Notes under the pieces: generated by a model
Database searches by the model: none
What the model was told of the DNA's origin: nothing
What the model saw: only the letters and a program-made list of their open reading frames with translations
Position numbers and translations under genes: made by a program
Shown: one piece after another, positions 438 to 9,719 of the stretch
Layout: each line of letters opens with the position of its first letter
How positions within the stretch are numbered: the stretch's first letter is position 1
NCBI GenBank assembly: GCA_021785095.1
Contig: JAJYGM010000074.1
Location: 1-9,719 of the forward strand
From: Actinomycetes bacterium
Lineage (GTDB): Bacteria; Actinomycetota; Acidimicrobiia; Acidimicrobiales; Bog-793
Reading direction: 5' to 3'
DNA: 9,719 nucleotides

Positions 438-457
<20 letters not shown>
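1..457 (-). CDS. pyrD: Dihydroorotate dehydrogenase, class 1 (5' part; runs off the window)
   Basis: This is the N-terminal 152 residues of an FMN-dependent enzyme that oxidises dihydroorotate to orotate, the fourth step of UMP synthesis. I translated it by hand from ATG at 457-455, which has an AGGAG seven bases upstream. Visible family landmarks are [13 protein letters not shown] near the N-terminus (FMN phosphate-binding region), [14 protein letters not shown], the [14 protein letters not shown] block, and [13 protein letters not shown] near the visible end. In class 1 enzymes the Cys of the SCPN motif (here Cys143) is the catalytic base. Class 2 quinone-linked enzymes have Ser there and a long N-terminal extension, which is absent here. 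So class 1 is well supported, but 1A versus 1B cannot be decided without neighbours. The start lies inside the carB end (20-bp overlap), so the gene belongs to the pyr operon. The C-terminal half is outside the window. Confidence 0.93.
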
Positions 458-3743
<3,286 letters not shown>

Positions 3744-3775: not shown

Positions 3776-4843
3776 CTAGCCGAGCATCTCGGCGAACGCG
3801 CGGAACAGGTACCTGGCGTCGTGCGGCCCGGGACCTGCCTCTGGGTGGTACTGGACCGAGAACGCGTTCGCCCTCGGAATGCGCACGCCCTCGACGACCC
3901 CGTCGTTCAGGTTCACGTGCGTCACCTCGGCGCCGGGGACGCCGGTCACCGCGTAGTTGTGGTTCTGGCTCGTGATCTCGACGGCCCCGTCGAGAAGCCG
4001 CTGGACGGGATGGTTCGTCCCGTGGTGGCCGAACAACAGCTTGTACGTCGAGCCGCCGAGCGCTGCGCAGAGGAGCTGGTGGCCGAGGCAGATCCCGAAG
4101 ATGGGCACCTTGCCGACCAGGTCGGCGATCGCCGACGTCGGACCGGCGAGCGCGCCCGGGTCGCCGGGGCCGTTCGACAGGAGCACGCCGTCGGGCTCCA
4201 TGGCGAGGACGTCGGAGGCCGGCGTCGACGCGGGGACCACCGTCACCGTCCCGACCTTTTCGAGCTGCCGGAGCATCGTCTGCTTCACGCCGAAGTCGTA
4301 CGCGACGACCCGGCGAGGGCCGCTCCCTCGTACGTACGGGGCCAGCGTCGTGACGTCCGACACGAGGTCGCGGCCGTCGGTCGGGAGCGCCTGCGCGGCC
4401 GCTTCGCGAAGCGCCGCTTCGCCGGCGGTGCCGAACGCGCAGGGCATGGCGCCCTTGTCGCGCAAGTGGCGCGTCAGGCGGCGCGTGTCGACGCCGCTCA
4501 CCGCGGGGACGCCCCGGCGCGTCAGCCAGCCGTCGAGGCCCTCCGTCGCGCGCCAGCTCGAAGGCTCCGGCGTGAGGTCGCGGACGACGACGCCGCGGCA
4601 GTGGACCCGGCCCGACTCGTCGTCCTCGCCGTTCGTGCCGTAGTTCCCGATGTGCGGGTACGTGAAGGCAACCACCTGGCCGGCGTACGACGGGTCGGTG
4701 AGCACCTCTTGATAACCGCAGAGCGCAGTGTTGAAGACGAGCTCGCCCGTCGCGACCGGTGCCGGCGCTCCGGCGGCCTCACCGTCGAACACCTCGCCGT
4801 CCGCGAGCACGAGCAGCGCAGCGGCACGCGGGGCCCCGCTCAC
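3776..4843 (-). CDS. carA: Carbamoyl phosphate synthase small (glutaminase) subunit
   Basis: This 355-residue subunit hydrolyses glutamine and passes ammonia to CarB. The N-terminal CarA-specific domain (about 8-135) has [21 protein letters not shown] and the NYGTN turn. The class I glutamine amidotransferase domain starts near 178 ([14 protein letters not shown]). It contains LLSNGPGDP (221-229), the nucleophile elbow GICLGHQ with Cys252, the [10 protein letters not shown] block (290-299) and [12 protein letters not shown] (331-342) with His333 and Glu335. The catalytic triad is therefore intact. I chose GTG at 4843 because it sits in a GTGA overlap with the pyrC stop, has GGAGG seven bases upstream, and leads straight into the family N-terminus. 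The open frame continues far upstream inside pyrC, but that part is a GC-rich extension without family similarity. The stop is TAG. Confidence 0.97.
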
Positions 4844-6126
4844 CGCTGCGCCTCCGCGTCGACGACGACCGCCTCGCCGGCCGCGATCGTGTGGCGGTTC
4901 CTGCCCGTGAACGTCCACCCGGAAAAGGGGGTGTTCCGGCTCCGGCTCGCAAGGCGCGCCGGGTCGACCGTCCAGGTGGCCGCGGGATCGATCACGCAGA
5001 GGTTGGCGCAGGCGCCCTCCACCACCGGGCCGCCCTGGCGCGGGGCCAGGCCGGCGATCTGCGCGGGCCGCCAGCTCATGCAGGCGAGCGCGAGCTCGAG
5101 GCCGAGGAACGAGAGCGCGACCGACAGCGCCGTCTCCAGCCCGAGCATGCCGGGAGGCGCCTCGTCGAAGGGGAGGTCCTTCGCCTCGGGCGCGTGCGGG
5201 GCGTGGTCGGTCGCGATCGCGTCGAGCACCCCGTCGGCCAGCCCGGCACGAAGTCGCTCCACGTCCTCTTGCCTGCGCAGCGGCGGGCTCACCTTGAACA
5301 CGGGGTCGTACCCGGCGCACGCGGCGTCCGTGAGCACGAGGTGGTGCGGGGTCACCTCTGCGGTGACGCACAGCCCCTCGGCCTTGGCCCGCCGGACCAG
5401 CTCGACGGAGCCCTCGGTCGACAGGTGGAGGAAGTGCAGCCGGGCACCCGTGAGACGCGCGAGCGCGATGTCGCGGGCGACCATCGTCTCCTCGGCCGCC
5501 GCCGGAGCCCCCGGCAGCCCGAGCCGGCTCGACCACGCCCCCTCGTGCATGGTGCCCCCCGCCGCCAGGGCGGCGTCCTCGCAGTGCTGGGCGAGGGTCA
5601 CGCCGAGCCCGCGCGCGTAGTCGAGCGCCCGGCGCATCAGCGCGCCGTCCTGGACGCCCGCGCCGTCGTCGGTGAAGATCCGGACACCGAGCGCGGCGAG
5701 CTCGCCCATCGGTGCCAGCCGCTCCCCTCTCCTGCCGACCGTGATCGCCCCTGCGACCGCCACCTCGACGGGCGCGCGTGCCCCGAGCGCGAGCACCTCG
5801 GTCGCGACTGCGGCGCAGTCGACCGGCGGCTCGGTGTTCGGCATGGCGACCACCGCCGTGTACCCGCCGAGCGCCGCCGACCGGGCGCCCGTCTCCACGG
5901 TCTCGGCCTCCTCCCTCCCGGGTTCGCGCAGGTGGGCGTGGAGGTCCACGAGGCCCGGCGCCACCACGCACCCGCCTGCGTCGAGCACCAGCGCGCGGCC
6001 GGGCGCCTCGCGCGCGACGTCGGGCCCCACGGCACGGACGACACCGTCGGCGACCACCACATCGGCCCGGCGGCGGCCGGCCGCGTCCAGGACCTCGCCG
6101 CCTCGAAGCACGAGCGGCCGGCTCAC
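4840..6126 (-). CDS. pyrC: Dihydroorotase (class I)
   Basis: The 428-residue zinc amidohydrolase cyclises N-carbamoyl-aspartate to dihydroorotate. The order of motifs is complete: [17 protein letters not shown] (54-70) with metal ligands His63 and His65, followed by the substrate-binding Arg67; [10 protein letters not shown] (94-103); [10 protein letters not shown] (151-160) with Asp153; AQHCED (179-184) with His181; HFLHLST (231-237) with His234; VTPHHL (258-263); and ATDHAPH (305-311) with the catalytic Asp307. C-terminal signatures GMLGLET (326-332) and [13 protein letters not shown] (397-409) are present. The length and the HAHLREPG form match the longer class I bacterial type. The start is GTG at 6126, overlapping the pyrB stop by four bases (GTGA). 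No strong ribosome binding site is visible, so translation is probably coupled to pyrB. The frame is open upstream to about 6690, but that part overlaps pyrB and shows no homology. Confidence 0.97.
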
Positions 6127-7037
6127 ATCGCACCGCCGAGCACCAAGAAGAGGACGGCCATCCGGACCGCGACCCCGTTGGTCACCTGGCGCGTGACCAC
6201 CGCCTGGGGCAGGTCGGCGACGTCGCTCGCGATCTCGACGCCGCGAACCATGGGACCGGGGTGGGTGACGACCGCGTCGGGGTCCAGGAGCTGAGCCCGC
6301 CGGGCGGTCAGGCCGAAGCGGGCCGTGTACTCGCGCAGCGTCGGGACGAACGCGCCGGCGCCGCGTTCGGCCTGGAGCCTGAGCAGGGACACGACGTCGG
6401 CCTTCGGCAGCGCCGCGTCGAGGTCGTCGGTCACCTCGGCCGGCCATCCTTCGAGGGAAGCGGGCAGCAGGCTCCCCGGCGCGACGAGGGTCACCGACGC
6501 GCCGAGCGCGTCGTAGGCGAGGACCTGGGACCGGGCCACCCGGCTGTGGAGGACGTCTCCGACCACGAGGACCCTCAGCCCCTCGATCTCGCCGCGTACC
6601 TGGCGCACCGTGAAGCAGTCCAGCAACGCCTGGGTCGGGTGCTCGTGCCACCCGTCGCCCCCGTTCACCACCTTGCAGCGCCGCACCCACCTGCTCACCT
6701 GCACCGGCACGCCCGCCGACGGGTGCCGGACGACGAGCGCGTCCATCCCCATCGCCTCGATGGTCTCGACGGTGTCGCGGACCGACTCGCCCTTCTTCAC
6801 CGAGGAGGCGCCGACCGAGAACGAGAGCACGTCGGCGGACAAGCGCTTGGCCGCCGTCTCGAAGGAGAGGCGGGTACGGGTCGAGTCCTCGAAGAACAAC
6901 GTCGCGATCGCCTTGCCGCGCAGCGTCGGGACCTTCCGGATCGGGCGCGTCCCGACCTCGGCGAAGGCCTCCGCGACGCGCAGGACCTCCTCGATCCCGT
7001 CGCGCCCGAGGTCCGACACCGAGAGCAGGTGTGTCAC
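6123..7037 (-). CDS. pyrB: Aspartate carbamoyltransferase catalytic subunit
   Basis: The 304-residue transferase joins carbamoyl phosphate and aspartate, the committed step of the pathway. The carbamoyl-phosphate-binding loop [13 protein letters not shown] (48-60) and the lysine-bearing loop SVKKGES (79-85) are intact. [10 protein letters not shown] (131-140), [11 protein letters not shown] (160-170), the aspartate-binding LLRLQ (218-222, Arg220) and [11 protein letters not shown] (259-269) follow in the expected order. The size and the SRVARS form resemble the trimeric, Bacillus-like class, which works without a PyrI regulatory chain. No pyrI is visible beside it. The GTG start overlaps the pyrR stop as GTGA, with only a weak GGA upstream, so translational coupling to pyrR is likely. 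This would put pyrB under whatever controls the pyrR ribosome binding site. Confidence 0.98.
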
Positions 7038-7591
7038 TGCAGGGTTCCGATCGTGACGCCGTCCTCGGAGACGTCCACCATCTCGTCCCGCCGGGTCGGG
7101 AGGTTTTTCCCGACGTAGTCCGGCCTGATCGGAAGCTCTCGGTGGCCGCGGTCGACCATCACCGCCAGCTGCACCGTGCGCGCCCGCCCGAAGTCGCTCA
7201 GCGCGTGGAGCGCGGCCCGCACGGTGCGCCCGGTGAACAGCACGTCGTCGACCAGCACCACGGCCTTGCCTGTGAGCTCGCAGGGGATCTCGGTCACCGC
7301 CTCGGGCAGCACGGGCCGCAGCCCGATGTCGTCGCGGTAGAAGGCGACGTCGAGGGTCCCCACCAAGACGTCTGCGTCCTCGGCTTGGCGCAGCGTCTCG
7401 GCGATGCCACGCGCCAGCGGCACGCCGCCGGTCTGCAAGCCGACGAGCACGACGCCGTCGAGGCCGCCGTTGCGCTCGGCGATCTCGTGCGCCATCCGGA
7501 CGAGCGCGCGGTGGAGGTCCGCTGCGGAGAGGACCTGGGTCCGTGGCACGAAGACGCGGCCGCGGGTGTGACTGCGCTCGCGCTCGGCCAA
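7034..7591 (-). CDS. pyrR: PyrR: bifunctional pyr RNA-binding regulator / uracil phosphoribosyltransferase
   Basis: PyrR binds pyr leader RNA when UMP or UTP is abundant and has a phosphoribosyltransferase fold, often with uracil phosphoribosyltransferase activity. Numbering is from the TTG start at 7591 (185 residues, normal family size). The PRPP-binding motif [13 protein letters not shown] is at 111-123. The substrate loop [12 protein letters not shown] is near 50-61, with Gly where many family members have Arg. VAFYRDDIG is at 82-90. The basic face used for RNA contact is kept: VDRGHRELP (146-154, Arg148 and Arg151) and YVGKNLPT (159-166, Lys162). TTG is chosen because AGGAGG lies four bases upstream, and because the alternative in-frame GTG at 7618 sits inside the loop of the PyrR-binding hairpin and lacks a Shine-Dalgarno sequence. 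It is the first gene of the operon. The stop overlaps the pyrB start. Confidence 0.93.
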
Positions 7592-7595
7592 CGGT

Positions 7596-7601
7596 CCTCC
7601 T
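7596..7601 (-). promoter_or_regulatory. Ribosome binding site of pyrR (AGGAGG)
   Basis: A full AGGAGG lies four bases before TTG 7591-7589 and two bases after the base of the PyrR-binding loop. It decides the start of pyrR in favour of TTG. A protein-stabilised hairpin directly upstream would crowd the ribosome footprint. The short spacing is at the low end of normal. Confidence 0.75.
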
Positions 7602-7603
7602 GT

Positions 7604-7634
7604 CCGTACGGGCCTCACGGGACCCGCTTCACGG
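7604..7634 (-). promoter_or_regulatory. PyrR-binding RNA loop in the pyr operon leader
   Basis: The minus-strand RNA folds into the PyrR-binding architecture. The lower stem is CCGU (7634-7631) with ACGG (7607-7604). A purine bulge GAA (7630-7628) sits on the 5' side only. The upper stem is GCGGGUC (7627-7621) with GGCCCGU (7614-7608), including two G-U pairs. The terminal hexaloop is CCGUGA (7620-7615). The known PyrR consensus ARUCCNGNGAGGYU is matched at 12 of 14 positions, and the two differences (first A to G, last U to C) keep the base pair. The loop ends two bases before the AGGAGG of pyrR, and I see no following terminator. This suggests translational repression as known in Mycobacterium smegmatis, not Bacillus-type attenuation. 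The fold and match are read from the sequence; the mechanism is inferred. Confidence 0.88.
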
Positions 7635-7644
7635 TCGAAGGGGA

Positions 7645-7650
7645 ACCTTA
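7645..7650 (-). promoter_or_regulatory. Possible -10 box (TAAGGT) for the pyr operon
   Basis: TAAGGT fits the actinobacterial TANNNT pattern, and transcription from about 7638-7635 would begin just before the PyrR loop, giving a leader of about 45-50 nt. No good -35 hexamer lies 16-18 bases upstream (the sequence there is GGCGCT). TTGATG at 7679-7674 is 23 bases away, which is too far. A -35-independent promoter, a promoter damaged by the upstream insertion, or read-through from the element are all possible. Confidence 0.25.
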
Positions 7651-7708
7651 CCGTTCCTCAGAACGTCAGCGCCCATCAATCCGGCCCTGACGGCCCGGCC
7701 CGAACGGT
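7650..7708. repeat. Nested inverted repeats at the tnpB 3' end
   Basis: The outer arms are ACCGTTC (7650-7656) and GAACGGT (7702-7708), seven perfect pairs. The inner arms are CGTCAGCGCC (7664-7673) and GGCCCTGACG (7683-7692), nine of ten pairs with a nine-base loop. The tnpB stop (7678-7676) lies in the inner loop. This could be a terminator without a U-tract, the structured right end of the IS element, or the 3' part of a TnpB guide RNA. The outer arm also touches the possible -10 box. Confidence 0.5.
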
Positions 7709-9418
7709 CTTGGCTGGACTGGTCCCGCTCCCTGCCACGTCGCCACGCCGGGTCTGATGGGCGCCCGGGTGCCTCCGTGGTGGTCGGGGGACGTGGTGGC
7801 GAGCGTTCGGTGCCCGGTTGCCGTCTGCGTGGTAGCTCGCCGCACCGGCAGCACTGCGCACGGGCTCCCCCGTGGCTGCGGCTTCGGTCCTCTGGCCGGG
7901 TGCGGTCACACCTGGGACTGCTGCTTGCAGATGGCGCCGTCGGGCCGAGTGCCCGAGGGCTCGCCTCCCGAGCACGACCGCTGCTGCGGTGTGCCTCGAG
8001 ACCTTGTGCTGCTTGTTGGAGAGGGGTGCCTGCCAGTGCTCGGCACCCCAGAGGGAGCTGTAGGCGGCGGGGACCCCGACGACGGCGATGCCCCGGCGAG
8101 AGGCCATGACCACCAAGCGGTCTCGGAACTGGGCGGTCGGGATGCCCGAGACCGTCCTTCGGAACCGCTTGTTGGACCCGTAGCGCTCCCTGCCGGTGGT
8201 GCGCATGTCGGAGAAGCCGAGGTTCTCGACTGCGACGAGCCTGCAGCGGTGGGCTCCTGCCATGTCGAGCAGCTCGGTGACGGCGTGGCGGAGGTGGCCG
8301 TCCCTGGTCGTGGCGGGGAGGTCCTCGGTCAGAAGGGGGATGTGGGGGAGCCTCCCGATCATGTTGCCGGCGGCGTCCACGACCGCCGGGGCGAGGAAGC
8401 CGTGGTTGAGGTCGACGGAGAAGACCCGGAGGTTCGGGTCCGCCTTCAGCTCCTCGAGGCTCGGCACTTCGGGCGTCTCAGCCGGCGTGAAGCTCGCGTC
8501 GAGGTAGACCCGGCCGGACTCGGAGAGCACCACGTCGTAGGCGACAGCTCGGTTGGCTTCGACCTGCGCGAGCCACTCGGCCCTGCGGTAGGAGAAGGCG
8601 ACGGGAGCCGAGAGGCGATACCGGGTGGTGCCGCGGGCGGTCACGTTCGCGAGGTGGGCCAACTGGGCCGGGAGGTCGACTTCCAAGGTGCTGTCGGGAG
8701 ACAGCCGGATGGTCTCGTTGCCGAAGGTCTTCTGCGCCTCGCCGTTGGCGCCGAAGGAGAGGCGGGCTGCTCGCCAGCTGCTGCGCCACTCCTCCTCACC
8801 CAGCCCGGCCTCGTCGAGGTGCAGCCGGCTGCGCAGGAGCTTCTTGCCCCCACGGGTGACATGCACCGTGCCGGCGGCGAGGTCCTGGGCCAGGCGGGCA
8901 CACTCGGCCCGGAGCACCCCGAGCCGCCGGCGCTTCATCGCGTGCTCGTGCCCCGAGCGGTAGCCGAAGTCGAGGTGCCTGGGACTGCGGCCCTCGGCCC
9001 TGGCCAGCTGGCGCTCGGCTCGCACGGCCTCCTTGCGCTCGGCGACGCTCGAGATGGGGAGCACGAGCCTCTTTGCGATGGCGGCCGCCGCCTGTGCCTT
9101 GTCGTCGAGCGCACGGCGCTGGTTGCGCCGGGCGGTGGCGTAGGCGTCGTTCGACGACTTGGTCACCCACCCCGCCCACCGGGACGAACAGTCCTTCGTG
9201 AGGGCCTGCTTCCTCTGGCGCCAGTCCTCCTTGTCGTGGGCGCTGCCGGCTCGACAGCGTGCGGCGAGGTCCTTGCCAAGGAGGACGGAGAGGTGCTCCC
9301 CCAGGGCCGTGAGCACCGCCCGGTCGTCGTCGCTGGCGTGGACGCGGGCCCGGATGCGCAGGGTGGTCGTGGTGGGCGCCTGCTCTGCCCCGTGGACCGG
9401 GTAGCGGGTCTTCTTCAC
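7676..9418 (-). CDS. tnpB: TnpB-family protein of an IS607-type element (RuvC-like, atypical active site)
   Basis: The 580-residue TnpB-like protein belongs to the family of RNA-guided nucleases that accompany IS200/IS605 and IS607 transposases and help retain the element; transposition itself does not need it. The N-terminal half is basic and helical (for example SSRWAGWVTKSSNDAYATA near 78-96). The RuvC-like part begins with VFSVDLNHG (332-340, Asp336) and continues with LVAVENLGFSD (394-404, Glu398). The third motif reads VSRHTAAAVVLGRR (473-486), with Thr477 where an Asp is usual. The region that normally holds the zinc ribbon reads AYSSLWGAEHW (452-462) and has no cysteines. The last 85 residues are Gly/Pro/Ala/Arg-rich and may exist mainly because a guide RNA is encoded there. 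The GTG start overlaps the tnpA stop (GTGA), with GAGGG upstream. The frame is open throughout with no sign of decay. Whether it still cuts DNA is uncertain. Confidence 0.9.
   Translation of the reverse strand: MKKTRYPVHGAEQAPTTTTLRIRARVHASDDDRAVLTALGEHLSVLLGKDLAARCRAGSAHDKEDWRQRKQALTKDCSSRWAGWVTKSSNDAYATARRNQRRALDDKAQAAAAIAKRLVLPISSVAERKEAVRAERQLARAEGRSPRHLDFGYRSGHEHAMKRRRLGVLRAECARLAQDLAAGTVHVTRGGKKLLRSRLHLDEAGLGEEEWRSSWRAARLSFGANGEAQKTFGNETIRLSPDSTLEVDLPAQLAHLANVTARGTTRYRLSAPVAFSYRRAEWLAQVEANRAVAYDVVLSESGRVYLDASFTPAETPEVPSLEELKADPNLRVFSVDLNHGFLAPAVVDAAGNMIGRLPHIPLLTEDLPATTRDGHLRHAVTELLDMAGAHRCRLVAVENLGFSDMRTTGRERYGSNKRFRRTVSGIPTAQFRDRLVVMASRRGIAVVGVPAAYSSLWGAEHWQAPLSNKQHKVSRHTAAAVVLGRRALGHSARRRHLQAAVPGVTAPGQRTEAAATGEPVRSAAGAASYHADGNRAPNARHHVPRPPRRHPGAHQTRRGDVAGSGTSPAKTVRAGPSGPD
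7735..7796. repeat. Three-tier nested inverted repeat within the tnpB 3' coding region
   Basis: Three sets of arms nest without crossing: CCACGT (7735-7740) with ACGTGG (7791-7796), CCACG (7743-7747) with CGTGG (7776-7780), and CCGGG (7748-7752) with CCCGG (7764-7768) around an 11-base loop. TnpB omega RNAs are known to overlap the tnpB 3' end and the element's right end, so structured RNA is expected here. GC-rich DNA produces short arms by chance, so this is suggestive only. Confidence 0.4.
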
Positions 9419-9719
9419 GACAGGTCCCTCGGTCCGATGTCGCGTTGTGCACAGCGCAAGGCCTTCTCTGCGCGGTTCCTGGCAGAGCGTCGCCCGTAGA
9501 GGCGCGCGCAGAAGCTGGTCAGCACCCCGACCATGTCACGTACCAAGTCGTCGTCGACTTCGCCCTCGTCGAGCACGACCAGGCGGCGGCCGTGTGCCGA
9601 CAACGCGGCCTCGACGAGCTCGGTGTTCAACCTCCCCAGCCGGTCTCGGTGCTCGACGACGACGGTCGTCACCTTGGGGTCGGCGAGGAGCCTGCGGACT
9701 TTCGAGCGGGCGCCGTTCA
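9415..9719 (-). CDS. tnpA: IS607-type serine recombinase/transposase TnpA (3' part; 5' end outside window)
   Basis: About 100 C-terminal residues are visible, reading in frame from the window edge (first full codon at 9717). IS607 TnpA proteins have an N-terminal MerR-like DNA-binding domain followed by a serine-recombinase domain, about 200 residues in total. Here only the later part of the catalytic domain is present: SKVRRLLADPKV, then VVVEHRDRLGRL with the conserved Arg-Asp-Arg-Leu helix start, HGRRLVVLDEGEVDDDLVRDM, and the C-terminal LTSFCARLYGRRSARNRA. The catalytic Ser lies outside the window. A start at GTG 9672 would drop conserved residues, so the frame is treated as open past the edge. 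The stop overlaps the tnpB start by four bases, the usual tnpA-tnpB order of this family. Confidence 0.92.
   Translation of the reverse strand, partial: NGARSKVRRLLADPKVTTVVVEHRDRLGRLNTELVEAALSAHGRRLVVLDEGEVDDDLVRDMVGVLTSFCARLYGRRSARNRAEKALRCAQRDIGPRDLS

Follow-up and report, generated by a model that had tools for sequence, protein, structure and literature searches.

A predicted PyrR-binding loop at the pyrR ribosome-binding site of an Acidimicrobiia pyr operon, and a putative terminator within pyrR of its relatives

Results

Organization of the pyr locus

The window (the whole 9,719-nt stretch analysed) carries a pyr operon on its minus strand. The operon starts with pyrR and continues through pyrB, a pyrC-like gene, carA and carB into the start of a dihydroorotate dehydrogenase gene, while a tnpB gene and a truncated tnpA gene lie upstream of pyrR (Table 1). 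Solved PyrR structures align with the window protein only from residue 18–21 on, leaving 17 extra residues before the core. Bacillus- and Thermus-type chains begin where the alignment begins. Chains 1w30 and 5iao, which we take to be mycobacterial PyrR, have 13 residues before the alignable point, so an N-terminal extension as such is not unique.

Table 1. Features of the window, and loops before carA in three other loci
Feature	Coordinates	Strand	Basis or remark
Dihydroorotate dehydrogenase, start of gene	457-2	minus	Pfam/NCBIfam annotation
carB, carbamoyl-phosphate synthase large subunit	438..3743	minus	Pfam matches
carA, carbamoyl-phosphate synthase small subunit	3776..4827	minus	PF00988, PF00117; start approximate
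pyrC-like dihydroorotase	4840..6133	minus	PF01979, PF12890; frame open further upstream of given start
pyrB, aspartate carbamoyltransferase	6123..7037	minus	PF02729, PF00185; overlaps pyrR end
pyrR, 185 aa, regulator and first operon gene	7034..7591	minus	NF003549, 211.2 bits (cut-off 138); PDB PyrR matches
PyrR N-terminal extension, 17 codons	7541..7591	minus	precedes part aligning with solved PyrR structures
Site of relatives' intragenic terminator	7545..7570	minus	no hairpin with U-tract, score 0; probable vestige
pyrR TTG start codon	7589..7591	minus	12 nt 3' of loop; 20 aligned homologues share start residue
Shine-Dalgarno AGGAGG	7596..7601	minus	sequence; begins 2 nt 3' of loop
PyrR-binding loop (predicted)	7604..7634	minus	sequence, RNAfold, 31-mer scan, R1 covariance model
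Putative guide-copied DNA	7630..7649	minus	rest of -10 box, predicted start, 5' arm of PyrR loop; from element end and IS607 rules
-10 hexamer TAAGGT	7645..7650	minus	3' end 10 nt before loop, the commonest spacing
TnpB element 3' scaffold (right end)	7650..7711	minus	common to relatives; fold z -3.33
TnpB-family protein, 580 aa	7676..9418	minus	NF040570, 31.7 bits, below cut-off 100; no Pfam match
IS607-type serine recombinase TnpA, cut by window end	9415..9717	minus	PF00239; NF033518, 95.6 bits, below cut-off 110, partial gene
Second PyrR loop before carA, L229	2259-2309
Second PyrR loop before carA, L230	919-969
Second PyrR loop before carA, L231	4049-4099

Structure of the loop in the window

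Read directly, the minus strand from 7634 to 7604 is CCGU-GAA-GCGGGUC-CCGUGA-GGCCCGU-ACGG. Specifically, it contains a 4-bp lower stem, a 5' GAA bulge, a 7-bp upper stem with G-U as its outermost pair, and a CCGUGA hexaloop. RNAfold predicts exactly this bulged structure, and the loop that an earlier note had proposed from the letters is confirmed. The PyrR-binding consensus is ARUCCNGNGAGGYU. As that note had also stated, 12 of the 14 letters agree with it and the two mismatches pair with each other, replacing A-U with G-C. The same pair is G-C in 95 of 150 relatives, A-U in 41 and G-U in 13; thus G-C is the ordinary form in relatives. No other 31-mer on either strand of the window forms 11 of 11 pairs and also matches 6 of 6 loop letters; the runner-up has 9 pairs and 6 letters. 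A covariance model, R1, built from 150 relatives with the window left out, finds the loop with 65.9 bits (E 5.9e-17), and its next match in the window scores 10.9 bits. The stability of the loop is within chance (z -0.99 over 41 nt, RNAfold against shuffles), and folding energy was rejected as evidence for it.

The loop lies directly before the Shine-Dalgarno sequence and TTG start codon of pyrR, in agreement with the earlier description of a loop at the ribosome-binding site. In the predicted fold, GGAG of the Shine-Dalgarno sequence (7600-7597) pairs with CUUC (7640-7637). The window loop is a sound further member of the known kind of PyrR loop.

A search with the Rfam PyrR model, suggested as a check, failed to return the loop: nothing in the window reached an Rfam gathering score, and RF00515 was silent at E up to 10 in 7500-7750. 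None of 20 relatives matched the model at gathering score either. Its cut-off is passed by 0 of 40 genomes of the class and by 2 of 14 named control genomes, with matches below the cut-off (E ≤ 1) in 13 of the 40 (best E 5.0e-4). Because no class genome passes, the missing match decides nothing; moreover, RF00515 spans 115 positions and is therefore no test of the loop alone. Rfam was dropped as an arbiter of loop identity as uninformative.

Conservation and covariation of the loop in relatives

PyrR is present in 336 of the 395 genomes of the class to which the nearest genome (L065) belongs. The set examined comprises 190 sequences, namely the window and 189 loci, with some genomes represented twice. 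Eighty loci came from named records; counted by title, 65 are actinobacterial, most with Acidimicrobi- or Actino- in the name, and the remaining 15 have other names. The class search supplied the best 30 loci plus all but one (79) of the 80 matches ranked next, the exception being already in the set.

A loop with at least 9 pairs and 6 loop letters lies upstream of the PyrR core, at a distance of up to 260 nt, in 180 of the 190 sequences, including L021, which was scored in the wrong register though the loop is visible in its sequence. Because the 9-pair cut favours pairing, the choice was repeated by letters alone. Loop letters were then found upstream of pyrR in 186 of 190, and the occurrence nearest to the core forms 9–11 of 11 pairs in 172, while 7 of 11 is the most that identical letters reach at the 43 places within pyrR. 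The start codon of pyrR lies 7–20 nt downstream of the loop in 148 of 170 loci.

Covariation among relatives, the other check that had been named, is present. The 11 loop pairs have 122 double-change cells versus 26.2 ± 3.8 after shuffling (0 of 500 shuffles as high; slid controls at most 32). These figures come from 150 of 156 distinct sequences; their preselection by loop letters and a minimum of 9 paired positions out of 11 favours pairing, and their relatedness inflates counts. The rows had passed the loop-letter cut, so the invariant loop letters of the alignment partly reflect selection. The outer helix, which overlaps the Shine-Dalgarno sequence, is paired in 65.7% of cells and has 120 double-change cells versus 60.7 (0 of 500; slid controls at most 65); loop and outer helix together have 242 versus 87.4 in shuffles. 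This alignment (A2) excluded the window, L021, repeats and ten loci (L061, L066, L067, L068, L070, L071, L073, L075, L076 and L080), nine of which have other phyla in their titles, the tenth being L071; limiting it to 150 rows dropped L059, L060, L062, L063, L064 and L069.

A scan of the phylum with R1, using strict filters and scoring at most 15 candidates per genome, matched at least 71 of 396 genomes, many of them weakly, and was set aside as evidence on how far the loop has spread in other Actinomycetota. Further PyrR loops stand before a Pfam-confirmed carA in three of 72 genomes with R1 matches (Table 1). The hairpin might be kept for general structure of the initiation region, with PyrR not binding it; its stability is ordinary, and PyrR binding is predicted from sequence comparison. 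This is very improbable, since the loop letters and bulged architecture agree with those of pyr leaders from Bacillota and Nitrospirota in the locus set, the loop adjoins pyrR, and it recurs before carA in three genomes.

Some single loci have additional features. In L230, a 35-residue leader frame at the carA loop spans a long hairpin. In L231, the carA loop is followed by a short frame, VSNTPDALCRPAGGAFVPGPGGPS, much like the RPLGGVFVP of PyrR N-terminal extensions. Upstream of pyrR in L046, loop-like CCNGNGA motifs occur twice, at -76 and -32, a possible tandem of PyrR loops; the 31-mer scan accepted neither.

A predicted terminator within the first codons of pyrR in relatives

Many relatives carry a predicted intrinsic terminator inside pyrR itself, one example being ACGCCCCC-NNNN-GGGGGCGTTTTTGTT. 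Among 153 distinct pyrR starts, the window counted, 83 have a terminator with a score of at least 25 within the first codons; counted from the first start-codon base, the U-tract begins at a distance of 43 nt in 59 of the 83. With a first detector, 90 of 180 loci had a terminator between the loop and the PyrR core, which fell within the open pyrR frame in 86; as a control, the detector found one in 2 of 190 pyrR bodies of 400 nt. Likewise, in 63 loci from named records, 37 leader segments score at least 25, versus 9 of 1463 downstream 100-nt windows.

These terminators are kept beyond what the encoded peptide needs. Shuffling of synonymous codons (200 times each) gave p ≤ 0.01 in 71 and p ≤ 0.05 in 86 of the 153 distinct starts. 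Codon use in the G-G/R-x-F motif, pooled from three groups over all 91 motif-bearing loci whether or not they have a terminator, differs from that elsewhere in pyrR: the Val codon is GTT in 65 of 79 versus 321 of 3467, the first Gly is GGG in 68 of 91 versus 485 of 2271, and Phe is TTT in 39 of 91 versus 82 of 447. The terminator stem has 14 compensatory cells versus 1.4 (0 of 500) in an alignment (A3) of 70 terminators, each selected for forming no fewer than 7 of 8 pairs, with some rows shifted. Synonymous shuffles, codon use and compensatory stem changes rule out the terminator as a by-product of the peptide.

When 170 distinct loci including the window are sorted, the terminator is in pyrR in 83, before pyrR in 12, weak in 18 and absent in 57. 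Nine of the 12 terminators before pyrR are traversed by a short frame with its own stop, and five of these frames, from actinobacteria, encode stretches such as HARPSRGAFFLP and LRPAVGAFLLP; no short frame through the terminator was found in L066, L067 and L075. In our reading, the PyrR extension corresponds to a fused leader peptide, and PyrR at the ribosome-binding site would work the attenuator. In these relatives, PyrR probably gates a translation-coupled attenuator.

Outside Actinomycetota, the Nitrospirota-type loci L068, L073, L076 and L080 have a PyrR loop, a Shine-Dalgarno sequence and a short frame running through a terminator, an arrangement of a coupled attenuator.

Absence of the terminator in the window

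In the window, no intrinsic terminator was found in frame after the loop. The region 7530-7580 has a fold z of -0.07, versus -3.80 and -3.11 for the terminators of two relatives. The extension comes in two lengths, that of the window being two residues shorter than the other; in the 120 nearest proteins listed, the shorter form occurs 57 times and the longer 61 times. The two-residue shortening sits within the codons of the hairpin.

In a quick unrooted tree of the PyrR core, the window groups with L081 and then with L082 (SH-aLRT 85 and 94, neither starred). L081 has no terminator (score 0) and L082 a weak one (about 22). Because the state of these neighbours is absent or weak and the peptide is kept, we infer that the window lineage probably lost the terminator, keeping only the encoded peptide; across the unrooted tree as a whole, the 22–25 changes of terminator state leave gain and loss undistinguished. 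With the terminator lost, the lineage would rely on translational repression.

The window could still attenuate once PyrR blocks translation, through a weak hairpin in codons 8–14 (CCCGCGGCCGCG then TCTTCG) or through Rho acting on the untranslated RNA. The hairpin corresponds in position to the terminator of relatives, and long U-tracts are often dispensed with in high-GC bacteria. We consider such residual attenuation unlikely, given the terminator score of 0 and the contrast in fold z with the two relatives.

The earlier note had proposed that PyrR blocks initiation at the TTG start with no attenuator. For the window this proposal stands: because the loop, the placement of the Shine-Dalgarno sequence, the TTG start and the absence of a recognisable terminator hold up, translational repression of the Mycobacterium smegmatis type is the best reading. 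It does not extend to the relatives, about half of which carry a terminator in pyrR, so "no attenuator" describes the window lineage and not the kind.

The pyr promoter and the TnpB element abutting it

Of 178 loci, 153 have a TANNNT box whose end lies 7–12 nt upstream of the loop, and in 90 the distance is exactly 10 nt. When 152 loci are aligned on this box, G occupies -2 in 82% and T occupies -3 in 53%, with no -35 element evident. The pyr promoters of relatives would thus be of the extended -10 type, with transcription predicted to start a few bases upstream of the loop. Position -3 in the window is C instead of the commoner T, and the end of the TnpB element supplies its G at -2. No sigma-70-type promoter was found in 7000-7900, nor any terminator on the operon strand of that region, which has one terminator pattern on the opposite strand. 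An antiterminator upstream of the loop was also considered and rejected, there being no room for one if the -10 box is used.

Relatives of the TnpB protein occur in 8 of 390 class genomes, at nine places. The window and eight of the nine relatives fetched share the stretch AAGACCGTTC...GGAACGGT and diverge afterwards, with single changes in L191, L194 and L195; no shared 3' scaffold was found in L198, the sole exception. Within the scaffold, ACCGUUC pairs with GAACGGU. We interpret the shared 3' stretch as the terminal part of the guide-RNA scaffold. According to PMC10711439, crossover in IS607 elements takes place at GG, and the scaffold includes the fixed base that follows. From the scaffold end and this crossover rule, the end of the element would fall in 7652-7650, on the first T of the -10 box; because it ends there, the guide RNA would copy the pyr leader, about 7649-7630. 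The DNA upstream of the -10 box has evidently been replaced by an IS607-type TnpB element whose tnpB gene reads towards pyrR.

Inspected by eye, the TnpB of the window lacks the usual RuvC-III Asp motif (it has SRHTAAA), as do eight aligned relatives (SGHHAAA and similar), and no zinc finger was seen in any of the nine proteins. This suggests that the active site of this putative nuclease is divergent or differently built.

The junction between element and pyr leader could be an assembly chimaera, as the contig may be metagenomic and repeat ends favour false joins. A chimaera is improbable, since few genomes (8 of 390) have the element family, the -10 box has the commonest spacing, and the position of the join is that expected for an IS607 insertion. 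Somewhat less doubtful, and still the minority reading, is that the operon is no longer controlled by its own promoter: read-through from tnpB would drive pyrR, and the loop would act in a long transcript. The end of the element at the -10 box, the shared direction of tnpB and the lack of a sigma-70-type promoter in 7000-7900 speak for read-through. On the other hand, the pyr promoters of relatives also have no conserved -35 element and have G at -2 in 82% of 152 loci, and the window box may still work because the element end supplies that G. With transposon DNA upstream of the -10 box and no sigma-70-type promoter found, expression in this organism is uncertain.

Discussion

We regard it as highly probable that the loop is an autoregulatory PyrR site that blocks initiation of pyrR, to which many relatives would add an intragenic terminator that the window lineage is without and probably lost. 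Judging from the -10 box, transcription would start at or a few bases before the loop, so the leader would consist of the loop, the Shine-Dalgarno sequence and the TTG start. With abundant uridine nucleotides, PyrR would bind the hairpin, as expected from the family. Bound PyrR would hold the helix that reaches into the Shine-Dalgarno sequence, blocking initiation of pyrR, and the genes behind pyrR would be silenced through translational coupling and polarity. If transcription starts 3–4 nt before the loop, part of the 5' strand of the outer helix is untranscribed, and it is PyrR, not the helix, that must block. In many relatives, the initiation block would also uncover the terminator in the first pyrR codons, and translational repression would become transcription termination.

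Taken as a whole, the following scenario is favoured with rather less confidence: PyrR of Acidimicrobiia would gate an attenuator whose terminator lies in the first 20 codons of the regulator, giving two-level silencing; the window lineage would have dropped the terminator and kept a fossil of the peptide, and a TnpB element, its guide directed at the pyr leader, would adjoin the promoter of that lineage.

On comparative sequence evidence, the predicted terminator inside pyrR adds a new variant among the relatives. In a literature search that lay mostly outside subscription journals, none of the matches listed, including passages of PMC3766115 and PMC2965389, describes a terminator of this kind in pyrR. 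PyrR control, known from a few model species, would extend across a largely uncultured class overlooked by the Rfam model. The comparison suggests a fixed loop combined with a changing control layer, either a block of translation or translation-coupled termination, in an apparent series from separate leader peptide to fused extension to vestige. The terminator in pyrR codons offers a clean, testable case of RNA function shaping a coding stretch.

Fields and Switzer reportedly described in 2007 a PyrR-dependent translational repression of pyr in M. smegmatis. Like that operon, the window has one PyrR loop at the pyrR ribosome-binding site and a leader without an attenuator. Unlike it, the window belongs to the class Acidimicrobiia, its transcript is predicted to begin at the loop, a TnpB element abuts its promoter, and its PyrR carries a peptide extension, the DNA of which contains a terminator in many relatives. 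For the pyr operon of Thermus strain ZO5, Van de Casteele is said to have proposed in 1997 a translation-coupled attenuation via a leader peptide. Similarly, the relatives have a PyrR site at the ribosome-binding site, a terminator inside the following frame and no antiterminator. In contrast to ZO5, the terminator-bearing frame is pyrR itself in most terminator-bearing Acidimicrobiia examined, and the window has no terminator.

PyrR of Bacillus subtilis acts by anti-antiterminator attenuation, as stated in PMC4347634 and represented by Rfam RF00515. The window shares the loop architecture and protein family, whereas its leader has no antiterminator, no terminator and no RF00515 match. As in the IS607 elements with TnpB and reRNA treated in PMC10711439, the element has a serine recombinase, a TnpB, a 3' scaffold ending in a fixed GG-containing motif and a predicted guide copied from the flank. 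It differs from the elements covered there in that the window and eight relatives are without the usual RuvC-III Asp motif, and in that the flank in the window is the promoter and leader of a pyr operon.
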